Part shown: positions 37,706 to 42,667 of the stretch, in pieces | Position numbering within the stretch: the first letter of the stretch is position 1 | Layout of the letters: each line of letters starts with the position of its first letter | DNA from: Cognatundibacterium griseum | GTDB lineage: Bacteria > Pseudomonadota > Gammaproteobacteria > Burkholderiales > Burkholderiaceae_D | Length of the DNA stretch: 64,000 nucleotides | Direction: 5' to 3' | Assembly (NCBI RefSeq): GCF_014284195.1 | Contig: NZ_JACOGC010000002.1 | Location: forward strand, 372,001 to 436,000 | Translations under genes and position numbers: made by a program | Notes under the pieces: model-generated | Database searches by the model: none | Seen by the model: only the letters and a program-made list of their open reading frames with translations | Told to the model about the DNA's origin: nothing

Positions 37706-37722
37706 TGGGGTGGTCGATGGGA
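37706..37722. repeat. Left attachment site (tRNA-His 3' fragment)
   Basis: The 17 bases TGGGGTGGTCGATGGGA are identical to the 3' end (CCA, discriminator, acceptor stem and start of T-arm) of tRNA-His at 42591-42607, and in the same orientation. Homology stops after them (GTACATC here, CTCGAAC in the tRNA). This is the expected duplicated core of a tRNA-targeting integrase. Confidence 0.9.
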
Positions 37723-37798
37723 GTACATCCATTTTTGCCACAAGCTATTGATTAATATGAGAAGTAACTGTTTTTGTTGTCCCATTTTACACAAAAAA

Positions 37799-37819
37799 GT
37801 GCTACACCAACTGCTACAC
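37799..37819 (+). repeat. Integrase arm-type repeat, left copy
   Basis: A 21-base sequence, GTGCTACACC-AACTGCTACAC, is repeated exactly at 42518-42538, and each copy holds two TGCTACAC units. It lies 77 bases inside the left core, suiting an arm-type site for the integrase. Confidence 0.65.
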
Positions 37820-37985
37820 TAACCCTACTAACAATATAATTATTAGTTCCTGTACCTACTCACTTTGTTCCGTAGGACATGCCAACGGCAGACCCTCCAA
37901 AGAGCCACGCGGCGATTGAGTGATAGAAAGGACACATAGAACCTGCTATCTTTTCACCTGTAAAAACTACTTAAGCAGGAAATTC

Positions 37986-38495
37986 ATGCATAAAAATAAA
38001 CTATTGAGCATGGTTGTTGGAGCTTTTGTTTGCAGTTCAATCGTAGCTGGTTGCAGTAATCAGGACGAAGCTCCTAAATCAATTCGGGATATTAGTTCTG
38101 TAATTACCAAAGTTGAGCAATCACCTGACAACAAAAAAATCACCGTAACCATTAAACAAGATTCGATATTTCAGGGTGGAAATGCCACCAAAGACGTACT
38201 CAATGGGATTATGAGTAATTTCAAATCACTCCCCTTTGATAACGTGGAAGTGATTATGGATGAGGTTCTGGTTGATAAGTATGGAAAAGAATCTATTGAG
38301 CCAATTATCAGCCTCAATTTCCCAAGAAGTGAAATGGAGAAGATCGATTTTAAAAATGTGGTTGGTTGGAATATTCTTAATATTTCCACCCCTCATAGAA
38401 TAGGAACGGTTTCTGCTCATATCGTTGCTCAGGAATGTGCAGAGGAAAATAATGCAAAATATGCCTCTGAATTTTGCAATAATATTACCCAATAG
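37986..38495 (+). CDS. Small lipoprotein of unknown function, island cargo
   Basis: The ATG at 37986 after AGCAGGA gives 169 residues; a GTG at 37920 would spoil the signal. The N-terminus MHKNKLLSMVVGAFVCSSIV-AGC is a lipoprotein signal with Cys23 in lipobox VAGC. The mature part alternates strands (KKITVTIKQDSIF, FDNVEVIMDEVLVDKY, IEPIISLNFPRSEM), with three C-terminal Cys. No family recognised. It is followed two bases later by the next gene. A surface or entry-exclusion role, as in some conjugative elements, is only a guess. Confidence 0.75.
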   Translation: MHKNKLLSMVVGAFVCSSIVAGCSNQDEAPKSIRDISSVITKVEQSPDNKKITVTIKQDSIFQGGNATKDVLNGIMSNFKSLPFDNVEVIMDEVLVDKYGKESIEPIISLNFPRSEMEKIDFKNVVGWNILNISTPHRIGTVSAHIVAQECAEENNAKYASEFCNNITQ

Positions 38496-38497
38496 CC

Positions 38498-38809
38498 ATG
38501 GACCTAAAAATGGAAAAATCAATTGCTGTTTCAAAGGCATTGGAACAACAGGACATTCCTCTATCTGGCCAAACAGTTCTGCACCTTATGAAATTGGCTT
38601 CACTTGTTGAGGAAGCAGAGTACGTTTCCTCAAGTGGTTCAGGTGAGATCAAAAGCTACTCAAGACTGACTCCAAGTGGTTTGAAATATGGTGAAAACAA
38701 GAAAACCATGAGCCCCACAAAAACTGATATAACAATATATCCCAGCAAAATTAAAGAGATCTTGATCGAATGTCACAGTGCATTAGGTGTATATCTATCC
38801 ACACTGTAA
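38498..38809 (+). CDS. Hypothetical 103-residue island protein
   Basis: Cytoplasmic-looking protein starting two bases after the lipoprotein stop, so almost surely cotranscribed. Charged and mostly helical N-terminal half (KSIAVSKALEQQDIPLSGQT) and a Ser-rich middle (YVSSSGSGEIKSYSRLTPSG). No signal, membrane segment or known motif. An ATG at 38510 is an alternative start. Function unknown. Confidence 0.55.
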   Translation: MDLKMEKSIAVSKALEQQDIPLSGQTVLHLMKLASLVEEAEYVSSSGSGEIKSYSRLTPSGLKYGENKKTMSPTKTDITIYPSKIKEILIECHSALGVYLSTL

Positions 38810-38827
38810 AGCACTCCAAAAACAAGA

Positions 38828-38853
38828 AAAGCTCCAATGCAAATTGGAGCTTT
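38828..38853 (+). terminator. Terminator of the island cargo operon
   Basis: Eleven-pair stem AAAGCTCCAAT (38828-38838) and ATTGGAGCTTT (38843-38853) with a GCAA tetraloop; the T tract is short. Confidence 0.7.
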
Positions 38854-39298
38854 ATCCTTTATATTCCCAAAACTTGACAATCCAGAAGAATTTCTTAACT
38901 TGGGAATGACACCCGACCAAAGTGTTAAGATCAATATAATCACCGAATACAATTTGTCAAGATTGAATTGCTCTACACTGGAAGGTGTGGGGCAATTTTT
39001 TTATGCGTCGATTCAGTTCCGCGATTCAGGAAATTGCTCGTGAAGGTATTGGGTAATAAATAGCACAGGTAAAAATAGTCAGGTAGCAACCAAAATTCCA
39101 TAGTTCCCTGATAACTGGAAAAGGTGAAACACCTAATATTGAAACAGACCCAACTAAAATTTTATAGGGTAAGTGGTTAGAATGAGATCCAAGCAAAACC
39201 ACAATGAAGACAATCAGCAGAACCATGCTTGGGGGAGGTTAATTTCCTGAATCTGCAACATAGAAATGATTACACCAATTTCTATTCTGGTATGTAGG

Positions 39299-39380
39299 CA
39301 CTACTAAGCCACAACAGATAACGTCACCAACTCAAATATCAATATTTGGGTAAGGGAAGACTTTTTCTGGCTTAGTAGTG
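39299..39380. repeat. Long inverted repeat with nested palindrome
   Basis: CACTACTAAGCCA (39299-39311) and TGGCTTAGTAGTG (39368-39380) are perfect 13-base complements, 56 bases apart. Between them lies CAAATAT-CA-ATATTTG near 39333-39348. This cruciform-capable arrangement is typical of transfer or replication origins, or recombination control sites. Confidence 0.65.
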
Positions 39381-39535
39381 TAGAGAGTGAAACGAACGAA
39401 ACGAATATGCCAGAAAAAGTACAATACAAACCAGTACAGAGATCCATACAGAAAACCATCTATGGAGAATAGTACCCGTAGGGGTGATATTAACGAAGTT
39501 AATATAAACGGACGAACGCCACTTAAAACACGTTT

Positions 39536-40696
39536 TTATGCAATTTTTGGTTTTGGCAAGACCCCAATAAATTCTCTGGCAATATTGAAGAATTTTTCAA
39601 ATCTCTGTCTGAATCGAGATCTCAATTCAACATTCTTCCTTCTTTCATTTGCCAACTCCTGTTCCATTTTGAGCATTCTTTCCTGATATTGGAATACAAG
39701 ACCAGCATCACCAATCTTCTGGTTAATTGCTTCCTGATAGACCTCTTTCTTGTTTTCCATATCAATTCGCTCCACTTCCATTTCTTTTCGCTCAATTTTT
39801 GCTGCTTTGGTTTCTTTGAAAAATTCCATTTGCAGATTCTGAAAATTGAGCATACTGAATTGCCGATAAATATCTGCCTCATGTTTAATATTTTTTATTA
39901 GTGGCAGAATGCATTCTGAAAATTTTTTCTTGAGTGCATCTTCAGACATTCTTTCTTTCCATGAGAAATCAATCCCGTCTACAAGTTCACGAAATTTTTT
40001 CTCATATGCAGGACTACTTTCTAAAATCTGCTGAACTTTTTGAATGGTGTACTCGTAGTCACTTGCTTCCTGGTGCTTGGCCTTGGACCCTTTTTGACCT
40101 CGTACCAATCCCCACTTTTTATTATTATCAGCAAAACGTGTTTGTAGATCTGCAAGGTACTCTGGATTGATTTTGGCAGAGCTCAAGGACCAAGTTTCTT
40201 TCTCGCACTCCCCATATCGATTCCTGTACCTCTTTATGGTTTTTTGTTCAGTCGTCACAAAGAAATGAATATGAGGTGTTTGTTCGTCCATGTGGAGTAC
40301 GGCAAACTTGAGTTGATCACCAAATTCTTTCCTCATAAATTTAACTTGATCACCTGCCCACTTCCCAATGTCTTCTACTGACTTCCCCACAAAAAAATCT
40401 GGAGAGGCAATAGCAAAATATTCAAAGCAGAGTACGTTGTTTTTCTTTTCTTTAATTCCCAACTTCTGATAGTGCTCAGTTAACTTGACCTGAAAGTCTG
40501 GACCAGATTTCATATCAATGCCAAAGTCGTTGATCAAAATCTGATTCAACTCACTACGTGAAGAATCGATATTTTTTTGGTGCCTCAACCGTAAGTTGTG
40601 TCTAACAGCAGAAGTGAGGTGAGATCGATTTTTGATTTTCTTCGTGCGAAGCACTGCATATTGCGGCTTGACTTTGTTTTTGCTTTTATGTGTCAT
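39536..40696 (-). CDS. MobV-family (Mob/Pre) relaxase
   Basis: DNA-nicking relaxase of 386 residues that would start mobilisation at oriT. Motif I RHNLRLRHQKNIDSSRSELN (residues 32-51) matches the HNxR...NID..RS.LN pattern of MobM, with H33 corresponding to its catalytic His. Motif III HMDEQTPHIHF (H135, D137, E138, H142, H144) is the metal-binding triad. A Lys/Glu-rich coiled-coil C-terminus (about residues 280-370) is usual for the family. Expression is on the minus strand, with no other mobilisation protein nearby. Confidence 0.9.
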   Translation of the reverse strand: MTHKSKNKVKPQYAVLRTKKIKNRSHLTSAVRHNLRLRHQKNIDSSRSELNQILINDFGIDMKSGPDFQVKLTEHYQKLGIKEKKNNVLCFEYFAIASPDFFVGKSVEDIGKWAGDQVKFMRKEFGDQLKFAVLHMDEQTPHIHFFVTTEQKTIKRYRNRYGECEKETWSLSSAKINPEYLADLQTRFADNNKKWGLVRGQKGSKAKHQEASDYEYTIQKVQQILESSPAYEKKFRELVDGIDFSWKERMSEDALKKKFSECILPLIKNIKHEADIYRQFSMLNFQNLQMEFFKETKAAKIERKEMEVERIDMENKKEVYQEAINQKIGDAGLVFQYQERMLKMEQELANERRKNVELRSRFRQRFEKFFNIAREFIGVLPKPKIA

Positions 40697-41023
40697 ATTT
40701 TGTTCTTGTTTTTATTTTGTGCCTACAATAATCGTAACGTACAAATACCGAAAGGCAAGATCAAAACCTTTGACCAACGTAAAACGTTGATCGCCTACTA
40801 TGTCAACCTAGATCGCTTCGCTAACCTAGGTTGGTAGGCCAAAGAGTTTCACTCTCTGGACTCTCAAAAACATAAACCCAACACCTTGAGGACCTGTCCT
40901 CAAACTCCTGTTCCGAATGCCAAAAAAAATCCCACTATAAAGTGGGATTCCTTTTGACACTCGGTCTGTTTTTTCTAATCTGTCACCTATCAAATTTGAT
41001 AGTTGACATTGCTTGAATAGGTG
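40697..41023. other. Hairpin-rich spacer upstream of the relaxase, candidate oriT
   Basis: Dense series of inverted repeats: AAAGG/CCTTT (40751-40771), CAACGT/ACGTTG (40775-40789), a long stem GCCTAC...CAACCTAG with CTAGGTTG-GTAGGC (40793-40839), TTGAGGAC/GTCCTCAA (40886-40903), the int terminator, and the palindrome CTATCAAATTTGATAG (40987-41002). MobV oriT sites usually lie directly 5' of the mob gene, as this does. Confidence 0.55.
40922..40949 (-). terminator. Terminator of the integrase gene
   Basis: On the minus strand AATCCCACT-TTAT-AGTGGGATT is followed by T7 or T8. It lies about 75 bases beyond the int stop. Confidence 0.85.
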
Positions 41024-42481
41024 TTACTCCTTCACCTGCTTTTCTTTCTCTTTGAGAAATTTTTTTCGTTCGTTGATCGATTTTTTGTTGACCAGACCTT
41101 CCAGTATTTTTTCATTTTTAAACTTGAACTGGAATTTTTTGAAGTCCACACCGTGATCAATTTTATCAAGAATTGAACGAATGAACTCAACTGGGTACTC
41201 TTTACCGTACACTGTTTGAGTGACATCACCTTCCATACTGTGACCTAAAATTCGTTTACGAATTGGCAGGTCAATTTGCAGATCCACCAAAGACGCTCCT
41301 ACAGTTTTTCTCAAACTGTGGAACACCTTTTGAGATTGATCTACTGTAATGAGTTGCTTTTTGTACTGGGTCCAATTGTAGGAAATATTTTTAGCATATC
41401 CATTGGAGGCAGTTTTTGTGAGGTAGGGAAACAACAACGAAGTTTCACCATAGGTGTTTTTCACCAACTGATAATATTCCAAAAAGTTGGTCAAAAGTAG
41501 ATCGGAAGTAAAAGGCATTTTACGAACTGCCGAAGGTGTTTTTACTTCCTTATCTTCCCCATTGTCATTAATATCAAAAACCCACACTCCACCTTCCTGA
41601 TAAATATCACTAATGTAGAGTTGAGCAATTTCATCAACTCGCATTCCAGTAGCAAGACTGATCAATGGAGCAAAAAACAAATCTGGTTTTTTGAACCGTT
41701 TCACATATTCTTCGAAATTCTCAACGAACAATCGTTGAATTTCTTCATTGGAATATGGCAACCAAGAATCTGTATGCTTTGCTCGTTCCGATTTTTTCAC
41801 GAGGTGCATATTTGAGAACGGGTTCTCAAATGGATACTTGCCAGCACCAATAGCAAAATCAAAAAAACCTTTGAGGGTTTTTGTGTAATTATCTACTGTG
41901 AGAGGACTATCCTGATCTTTAATGATCAATTCACGGTAATCTCCAGCTTGTGGCTTGTGAATTTCATCAATAAAAATAACACCACGAGATCGATAGTAAT
42001 CGATAAATTTTTCAATTCGTGGGAAGTAGGCAGCTTGAGTAGCTTCTGCAAAAACCTTCTCTTTTGCTATCTTGTACGAACCAAAAAGATCCACAAGGCG
42101 ATAGCGAGAGCTCCCATGGGTAGTAGCTCCAGCACTATTTGAGGCGGTTACAGGCTGTTTTAACAAGCCTATTTGAGAAATGGTATCCTGATATGCAGAT
42201 CGTTCTTCCTCAACCTGCATATTAAAGTCAATCTTCGTGCCATTGGGTAATGTGACAGACAGATCACGGTGATCCCCAATTCCTATTATTTTTTTCATTT
42301 CTGCAACCCATTTCTCAAAGGACAGAGCTACTTGAAGTGACCTCAAGTATGCCAGTTTCCGATCCTTTGTACGAAGACTCTGGATAAGCTTGGGTTGCTG
42401 TACGTGGGGGAGAAGTGCTTGAGGTACGAACAGACGAATGTAGTAGGTACCGTGTCTGTTCTGGTAGGTGTTTTGCAACAT
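41024..42481 (-). CDS. int: Tyrosine-type site-specific integrase
   Basis: Recombinase of 485 residues that inserts and excises the element. The N-terminus NRHGTYYIRLFVPQALLPHV is the DUF6538-like start of many tRNA-targeting integrases. Catalytic residues of the R-H-R-H-Y set are present: R in ATGMRVDEIA (about 280), H-x-x-R in HSLRKT (about 388), H in LGHSME and Y in TVYGKE near 422. It lies beside tRNA-His and reads away from it, the usual position. No excisionase gene recognised. Confidence 0.94.
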   Translation of the reverse strand: MLQNTYQNRHGTYYIRLFVPQALLPHVQQPKLIQSLRTKDRKLAYLRSLQVALSFEKWVAEMKKIIGIGDHRDLSVTLPNGTKIDFNMQVEEERSAYQDTISQIGLLKQPVTASNSAGATTHGSSRYRLVDLFGSYKIAKEKVFAEATQAAYFPRIEKFIDYYRSRGVIFIDEIHKPQAGDYRELIIKDQDSPLTVDNYTKTLKGFFDFAIGAGKYPFENPFSNMHLVKKSERAKHTDSWLPYSNEEIQRLFVENFEEYVKRFKKPDLFFAPLISLATGMRVDEIAQLYISDIYQEGGVWVFDINDNGEDKEVKTPSAVRKMPFTSDLLLTNFLEYYQLVKNTYGETSLLFPYLTKTASNGYAKNISYNWTQYKKQLITVDQSQKVFHSLRKTVGASLVDLQIDLPIRKRILGHSMEGDVTQTVYGKEYPVEFIRSILDKIDHGVDFKKFQFKFKNEKILEGLVNKKSINERKKFLKEKEKQVKE

Positions 42482-42517
42482 GGTGCAGGTTCCAAGTTGA
42501 ACCTGTGGCGCAAAAAT

Positions 42518-42538
42518 GTGCTACACCAACTGCTACAC
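42518..42538 (+). repeat. Integrase arm-type repeat, right copy
   Basis: Exact copy of the left 21-base repeat (37799-37819), 53 bases inside the right core and immediately upstream of the int gene, so binding here could also repress int. Confidence 0.65.
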
Positions 42539-42550
42539 CTTCAATGACAT

Positions 42551-42580
42551 TCTCTTTGTAAGTTACTGATTACAAAGAGA
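42551..42580. repeat. Perfect 10-base inverted repeat between int and tRNA-His
   Basis: TCTCTTTGTA (42551-42560) and TACAAAGAGA (42571-42580) flank a 10-base loop. It is the first hairpin met by transcripts leaving tRNA-His, but has no T tract on that strand, so it is a poor terminator. Confidence 0.7.
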
Positions 42581-42590
42581 AAAAATGTAT

Positions 42591-42667
42591 TGGGGTGGTC
42601 GATGGGACTCGAACCCACGACAACAGGAATCACAATCCTGGACTCTACCAACTGAGCTACGACCACC
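42591..42667 (-). tRNA. tRNA-His (GTG)
   Basis: On the minus strand the sequence folds with acceptor GTGGTCG/CGACCAC, anticodon GTG in loop TTGTGAT, T-arm GTGGGTTCGAGTCCCAT, an encoded CCA and the extra G at position -1 that is specific to tRNA-His. Its 3' end is the integration target and remains intact after insertion. Confidence 0.97.

Follow-up and report, generated by a model that had tools for sequence, protein, structure and literature searches.

We describe a DNA piece of about 4.9 kb in a 64,000-nucleotide stretch of Cognatundibacterium griseum (contig NZ_JACOGC010000002.1, positions 372,001 to 436,000), hereafter called the window. The piece is seated between two copies of the 3′ end of a tRNA-His gene and carries genes for a tyrosine integrase (int) and a MobV-type relaxase (mob). 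A congener with an empty site confirms that it is a real, precisely bounded element. We interpret it as a relaxase-bearing integrative and mobilizable element (IME) working like Tn5520 or IMESag-rpsI, with a probability of about 0.85. The kind of element is known, and this one belongs to a set of compact members in the bacterial family; the host class is apparently new. The features that carry this interpretation are as follows, with lengths in amino acids (aa) or base pairs (bp).

37706-37722, plus strand: distal attachment core, a copy of the tRNA-His 3′ end (exact 17-bp repeat; single copy in the empty site)
37792-37819, plus strand: probable integrase arm repeat, distal side (D1 repeat; 20-bp part kept in a Pandoraea relative)
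39536-40696, minus strand: MobV-type relaxase gene, 386 aa (PF01076, NF041497, match to 4lvi, motifs I and III)
40793-40839, minus strand: probable origin of transfer (oriT) hairpin with a stem-bulge-stem plan upstream of mob; predicted nick within 40792-40794, minus strand
41024-42481, minus strand: tyrosine integrase gene (DUF6538 and Phage_integrase), 485 aa (Pfam; homologue alignment)
42511-42538, plus strand: probable integrase arm repeat, tRNA side (D1 repeat; 20-bp part kept in the Pandoraea relative)
42591-42607, plus strand: attachment core inside tRNA-His (exact 17-bp repeat)
42591-42666, minus strand: intact tRNA-His gene, the integration target (ARAGORN; Rfam tRNA 64.2 bits)

Borders and empty site

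An earlier reading of this DNA, made from the sequence only, had described an exact 17-base duplication of the tRNA-His 3′ end at the borders of 4.9 kb of AT-rich DNA. Exact search of the window bore this out. The core TGGGGTGGTCGATGGGA occurs as a direct copy at 37706-37722 and 42591-42607, and no further copy was found on either strand of the 64 kb. Between the cores lie the integrase gene, the relaxase gene and two open reading frames (ORFs) of 169 and 103 aa. The G+C (GC) content of the element is 0.384 as compared to 0.534 in the remaining window, and the lowest-GC stretch of 4885 bp in the window coincides with the element.

A precise empty site in a related genome had been named beforehand as a check. 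The left flank of the element was matched in 34 of 43 genomes of the genus, with its full 793 bases matched only in the genome itself and in the congener G265. In G265, both flanks are joined across a single 17-bp core, tRNA-His is intact and the element DNA is missing; identity is 90.1% on the left (1226 columns) and 86.9% on the right (1214 columns). Because the G265 flanks meet over one core, the boundaries of the element are more than a chance repeat. Fourteen other loci from the left-flank search hold tRNA-His and were left out of the empty-site count, their junctions being unaligned.

Integrase, relaxase and probable origin of transfer

The integrase scored above the Pfam cut-offs with both PF00589 (40.6 bits, cut-off 27.1) and DUF6538 (44 bits, cut-off 27). 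Residues R281, H388-xx-R391, H414 and Y425, which we take to be the catalytic residues of tyrosine recombinases, are invariant across three aligned homologues. No inactivating change was seen on this alignment and the frame is open. The sequence-only reading had proposed a complete integrase beside an intact tRNA. In plasmid records the integrase had 44 matches, all below 60% identity (the 15 listed span 22.7-32.1%), and a plasmid home for it was rejected on this ground. A 28-bp direct repeat, D1, identical at 27 of 28 positions, lies inside each end of the element. Within it, a 20-bp part, TGCTACACCAACTGCTACAC, recurs unchanged at each end of the Pandoraea relative, and near-copies with 2-4 mismatches adjoin the int gene at two other loci, L087 and L169. 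The D1 repeats would be arm sites bound by the integrase.

The relaxase scored 96.8 bits with PF01076 (cut-off 25.5) and matched the solved plasmid recombination enzyme 4lvi (E 2.4e-8), presumably MobM of pMV158. It keeps motif I HxxR (H33, R36) and motif III HxDExxPHUH, the latter as HMDEQTPHIH, as had been read from the sequence. Its frame is open, and no inactivating change was found on alignment. The definitions of these motifs, and of motif II (NYD/EL) of MOBV1 relaxases, were taken from PMC5090054; here and below, statements from PMC5090054, PMC5704250 and PMC5863519 refer to excerpts of these papers.

Upstream of mob, at a distance of 96 bp and on the same strand as the gene, is a hairpin whose basal stem has 6 bp and whose apical stem has 8 bp, with ACATA bulging from the right arm; GAT and then a second hairpin follow. 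The structure was compared with the oriT of pMV158 as published. There, IR3 has a stem of 12 bp, three nucleotides (ATA) that bulge from the right arm and a nick at the right-arm end (PMC5863519); the nick sequence is given as TAGTGTG/TTA (PMC5090054). In the window, TAGTAGGCGAT sits where the pMV158 nick is described, and the nick is therefore predicted within 40792-40794.

To place this hairpin among others, a census of MobV loci was used. At E 0.001, MobV was matched in 51 of 392 genomes of the family, nine of them above the cut-off. After leaving six weak places (G190, G184, G202, G010, G224, G065) of 53 out of the wide-flank sampling, the census base comprised 48 distinct MobV loci (49 rows, Pandoraea being present twice), mostly with at most 8 kb of flank. 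The strict stem-bulge-stem plan was found upstream of seven of the 49 mob rows (six of the 48 distinct elements) as compared to 8 of 1500 random stretches, which were drawn from the same loci and may include the hairpins themselves. Seven hairpins were then compared (window, L048, L081, L082, L087, L089, L167; those of L082 and L087 were included by eye). Stems pair at every position in six of them and at 13 of 14 positions in L082. The stems differ between elements yet still pair, with changes on both sides of the pairs. Inner apical arms paired 6 of 6 with their own partners, as compared to a mean of 2.86 of 6 when partners were swapped, a comparison biased towards structure because the arms had been picked for pairing (G-T allowed). 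Fold z-scores, computed for DNA, were -4.51 for the window, -2.95 for L081 and -1.91 for L082. Overall, the 40793-40839 hairpin, found at a place where an oriT would be expected, is probably the origin of transfer.

The element thus has its own integrase with attachment (att) sites and its own relaxase, and no mating-pore or coupling gene was recognised among its six scanned ORFs, as is described for canonical IMEs. The integrase would bind both the cores and the paired arm repeats; recombination of the cores would then yield a circle with one core and leave tRNA-His intact. The MobV relaxase would nick the minus strand at the hairpin, near 40793, and remain on the 5′ end. A conjugative plasmid or integrative and conjugative element (ICE) residing in the same cell could then supply the coupling protein and mating pore through which the relaxase-DNA complex passes. 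In the recipient, the circle would close and then integrate at tRNA-His.

Relatives, helper functions and alternative readings

A search for the int and mob pair in related genomes, suggested by the sequence-only reading, retrieved the same pair at tRNA-His in Pandoraea nosoerga LMG 31109 (L048/L170), with 77% identity for mob and 72% for int over full or nearly full length. This element resembles that of the window in its tRNA-His core, its identical 20-bp arms, its oriT plan and a 28-bp palindrome. It differs in its small ORFs, which are others (of 94 and 126 aa), and by being stacked with a 6.4-kb phage-like stretch (L170:6846-13325), past which the intact tRNA-His lies. No description of the Pandoraea element was found in the literature consulted. 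The phage-like stretch carries genes for a reverse transcriptase, a GH108 lysozyme-type protein, an SNF2-type helicase and an integrase of its own that differs from that of the element, and an extra copy of the tRNA-end core divides it from the element.

Close relatives are few. At E below 1e-20 the relaxase was found in two of 294 family genomes, its own and G292 (twice, 51% and 43%), and at E 1e-20 in one of 399 genomes of the order, its own. Among 32 loci from the genome_contigs set, only Pandoraea is close, all others being at most 33% identical; among viral contigs, the sole close match is an IMG/VR entry that is the same Pandoraea DNA (100% identical). At E 1e-40 the integrase was found in three of 392 family genomes, namely its own, G128 (72%) and G246 (66%), in each case beside tRNA-His. 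In G128, mob is reduced to a 47-residue match near ORFs that look transposase-like by eye, while the hairpin persists. MobV was not found in G246. At its integrase locus (L169:2848-10480), a core copy one base off the genome's own tRNA lies 7.6 kb away, and Pfam gave no relaxase in the five intervening ORFs. This 7.6-kb stretch consists mostly of ORFs without Pfam matches.

Helper functions were sought in the element and in the host genome. Pfam gave no type IV secretion system (T4SS), coupling-protein or mating-pore gene among the six element ORFs. PF03135 (VirB4-type) had no match in the 19 contigs of the genome, other VirB4 families being outside this search. The sole PF02534 match, a VirD4/TraG-type coupling-protein gene (contig C10, L173:2293-8442), carries three internal stops. 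Ten neighbouring ORFs were scanned: one is a fragment of the same gene, another is a Tn3-type transposase, and no other T4SS gene was found. The broken gene is perhaps the relic of a conjugative element. These results lend support to the helper dependence that had been proposed.

Several points weigh against an active mobilizable element. In the genome, the two families searched (PF03135 and PF02534) gave no intact helper, and no directionality factor or excisionase was recognised by Pfam in the six ORFs or by PHROGs in four. The relaxase passes the curated MobV model NF041497 by a narrow 0.6 bits (100.6, cut-off 100). Motif II NYD/EL is missing, the aligned stretch being NQIL, and the relaxase is therefore kept out of MOBV1, the group of MobM and MobSag; the loss need not disable the enzyme, since MobM reportedly cleaves via a histidine, not a tyrosine (PMC5863519). 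The strict oriT plan was not found at 42 of the 49 mob rows and is therefore not general for MobV in this family. The Pandoraea hairpin has a z-score of only -0.83 (42 of 200 shuffles), its fold being no better than many shuffles. Finally, excision and helper transfer are steps that we infer.

Some of these points would fit a non-mobile relic, whose DNA the integrase once brought in and in which mob and the hairpin are leftovers of a MobV plasmid, transfer having been lost. The genome without an intact helper in the two families, the decayed related copy in G128 and the frequency of MobV on plasmids (1053 plasmid records matched the relaxase) all favour such a relic. Against it, every one of these 1053 matches is below 60% identity, and both frames are open with their conserved residues. 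Moreover, the Pandoraea pair, still (nearly) full length at 77% and 72% identity, fits continued selection, and the hairpin stems vary while their pairing persists. We regard a relic as unlikely.

The remaining features of the element are two cargo ORFs and a palindrome.

37986-38495, plus strand: 169-aa cargo ORF, predicted lipoprotein by eye (phrog_25219 match)
38498-38809, plus strand: 103-aa cargo ORF of unknown function (weak phrog_129 match)
40981-41008, no strand: 28-bp near-perfect palindrome TGTCAcCTATCAAATTTGATAGtTGACA, identical in the Pandoraea element

For the 169-aa ORF, the ATG at 37986 was chosen as start, the mechanical ORF opening at 37920. It matched phrog_25219, a family of unknown function (E 2.4e-18), and was found in one of 225 family genomes, its own. 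The 103-aa ORF had a weak match to the transcriptional regulator family phrog_129 (22.3 bits) and was found in two of the 225, its own and one with a partial 52% match. With Pfam, the 169-aa ORF had no match above cut-off and the 103-aa ORF had none.

The lipoprotein-like cargo bears on another reading, that of a satellite packaged by a helper phage, in which the relaxase would be incidental. Its match to a phage family speaks for this, as does the Pandoraea relative, stacked with a phage-like stretch and present in IMG/VR. However, no packaging, capsid-remodelling or phage-hijacking gene was recognised (Pfam, six ORFs; PHROGs, four ORFs), and mob had no PHROG match at E 0.01. In Pandoraea, the phage-like stretch has a different integrase and is parted from the element by a core copy. 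The satellite reading was rejected because no packaging gene was recognised in the scanned ORFs, and we consider it most improbable.

Other candidates were tried for the cargo and for the non-coding DNA. A defence island was rejected, the 169-aa and 103-aa ORFs having no PADLOC match; over ten cargo ORFs, the sole PADLOC match was a weak one in the cargo of L163 (E 0.0016). The palindrome TGTCAcCTATCAAATTTGATAGtTGACA is unchanged in the Pandoraea element though the neighbouring ORF differs. As a genome-wide operator it was rejected, being the sole genomic site at up to 3 mismatches. A structured RNA in the element was likewise rejected: among 12 Rfam matches at E up to 1, only the tRNA passed the gathering score, and 8 of the other 11 lie on or beside a terminator-like host hairpin left of the element. 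Downstream of mob, a long imperfect hairpin (39299-39380) has an apparent counterpart, seen by eye, at about 9330-9395 of L048; it is possibly a lagging-strand origin.

MobV elements in the family and known systems

We next consider the mobilizable element in the context of the census, in which bracketing counts are lower bounds because flanks are mostly at most 8 kb. At 14 or more of the 48 loci, mob lies between a tRNA gene and a repeat of at least 17 bp of its 3′ end; one further locus, L153, has a 14-bp repeat and is outside the 14. Using a profile iterated for three rounds, a window-type integrase was found paired with MobV in ten distinct elements. Eight of these are bracketed by 17-19 bp tRNA repeats, at tRNA-His (window, Pandoraea), tRNA-Asp (L083, L089, L090) and tRNA-Ser (L088, L133, L163). 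Of the other two, L081 lies in a stretch where no tRNA is seen, and L082 has a tRNA-Asp beside int with no repeat found. This integrase class is loose, because the L088, L133 and L163 integrases lack DUF6538 by Pfam and that of L088 scores below cut-off for Phage_integrase (24.8). On the MobV model, the relaxases of L088 and L089 reach 53 bits and so fall below its cut-off, yet they pass that of Pfam.

Apart from the window element and the Pandoraea stack, the six bracketed window-type elements measure 4.0-6.1 kb including the tRNA and have 34-46% GC; the surroundings of five are at 50-65% GC, and L090 is almost without surroundings. Indeed, this congener contig (L090:1-4981) is very nearly one tRNA-Asp MobV element and no more, from 4 bases before the tRNA to the second core. 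Either a circular copy or a break of the assembly at the repeat may lie behind this. The other six bracketed loci (L137, L140, L145, L146, L148, L154) combine repeats of 28-50 bp with Arm-DNA-bind_3 integrases. Two of them, L140:7057-11757 and L146:4583-11807, have tRNA-His repeats of 50 and 31 bp, so that another type of integrase shares this target.

The census raises the question whether the family harbours an undescribed lineage of mobilizable elements that are AT-rich, 4-6 kb long and relaxase-bearing, combining the window-type integrase and MobV at various tRNA 3′ ends (His, Asp, Ser), with different 17-19 bp cores and, in part, an oriT of the pMV158 plan. We judge the chances of such a lineage to be evenly balanced. 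The sequence-only reading had suggested that so compact a MobV and integrase pairing may be undescribed in this host group. This held in part: no MobV integrative element was found for any betaproteobacterium in a literature search of partial coverage, which leaves absence unproven. On the other side, the pairing is not unique, as the ten elements show, and other phyla are known to have integrative elements with MobV; the excerpted 2017 review counts Tn5520, ATE-1, Tn6215, Tn4451 and IMESag-rpsI among MobV elements (PMC5704250).

Two of these are close in design. Tn5520 of Bacteroides fragilis, compared by description, likewise combines a single tyrosine integrase with a MobV relaxase and no listed accessory factor; it is termed the smallest mobilizable transposon in a reference title, and IncP plasmids mobilize it. 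Unlike the window element, it belongs to another phylum and has low target specificity, with an AT-rich preference and no tRNA (PMC5704250). IMESag-rpsI of Streptococcus agalactiae shares Phage_integrase with MobV, att sites and an inverted-repeat oriT upstream of mob, and its circular form was demonstrated by its authors. It differs in its size (9.1-9.5 kb), its 13 ORFs including replication and toxin-antitoxin functions, its MOBV1 relaxase with motif II, and its phylum (PMC5090054). With pMV158 and MobM, the element shares the relaxase fold match and the order of oriT stem, ATA bulge, stem and nick at the right-arm end (PMC5863519), whereas pMV158 is a replicating plasmid without integrase, with TAGTGTG/TTA at the nick in place of TAGTAGGCGAT.

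In its excerpts, the 2017 review places canonical IMEs in Bacteroidetes, Actinobacteria and Firmicutes, and states that, among the IMEs described in Proteobacteria, none encodes a canonical relaxase of its own while lacking every coupling and mating-pore protein. Table 2 of the review does include an island of Burkholderia glumae in which a MobP relaxase occurs along with some Trb proteins (PMC5704250). The element would help to fill this gap in canonical relaxase-bearing mobilizable elements of Proteobacteria. The data suggest that such hitchhikers do occur there, that they are very small and that they recur at several tRNA genes. The common hairpin offers a nick site that can be tested, and one integrase with one relaxase would make a convenient minimal system in which to ask what helpers mobilize the element.

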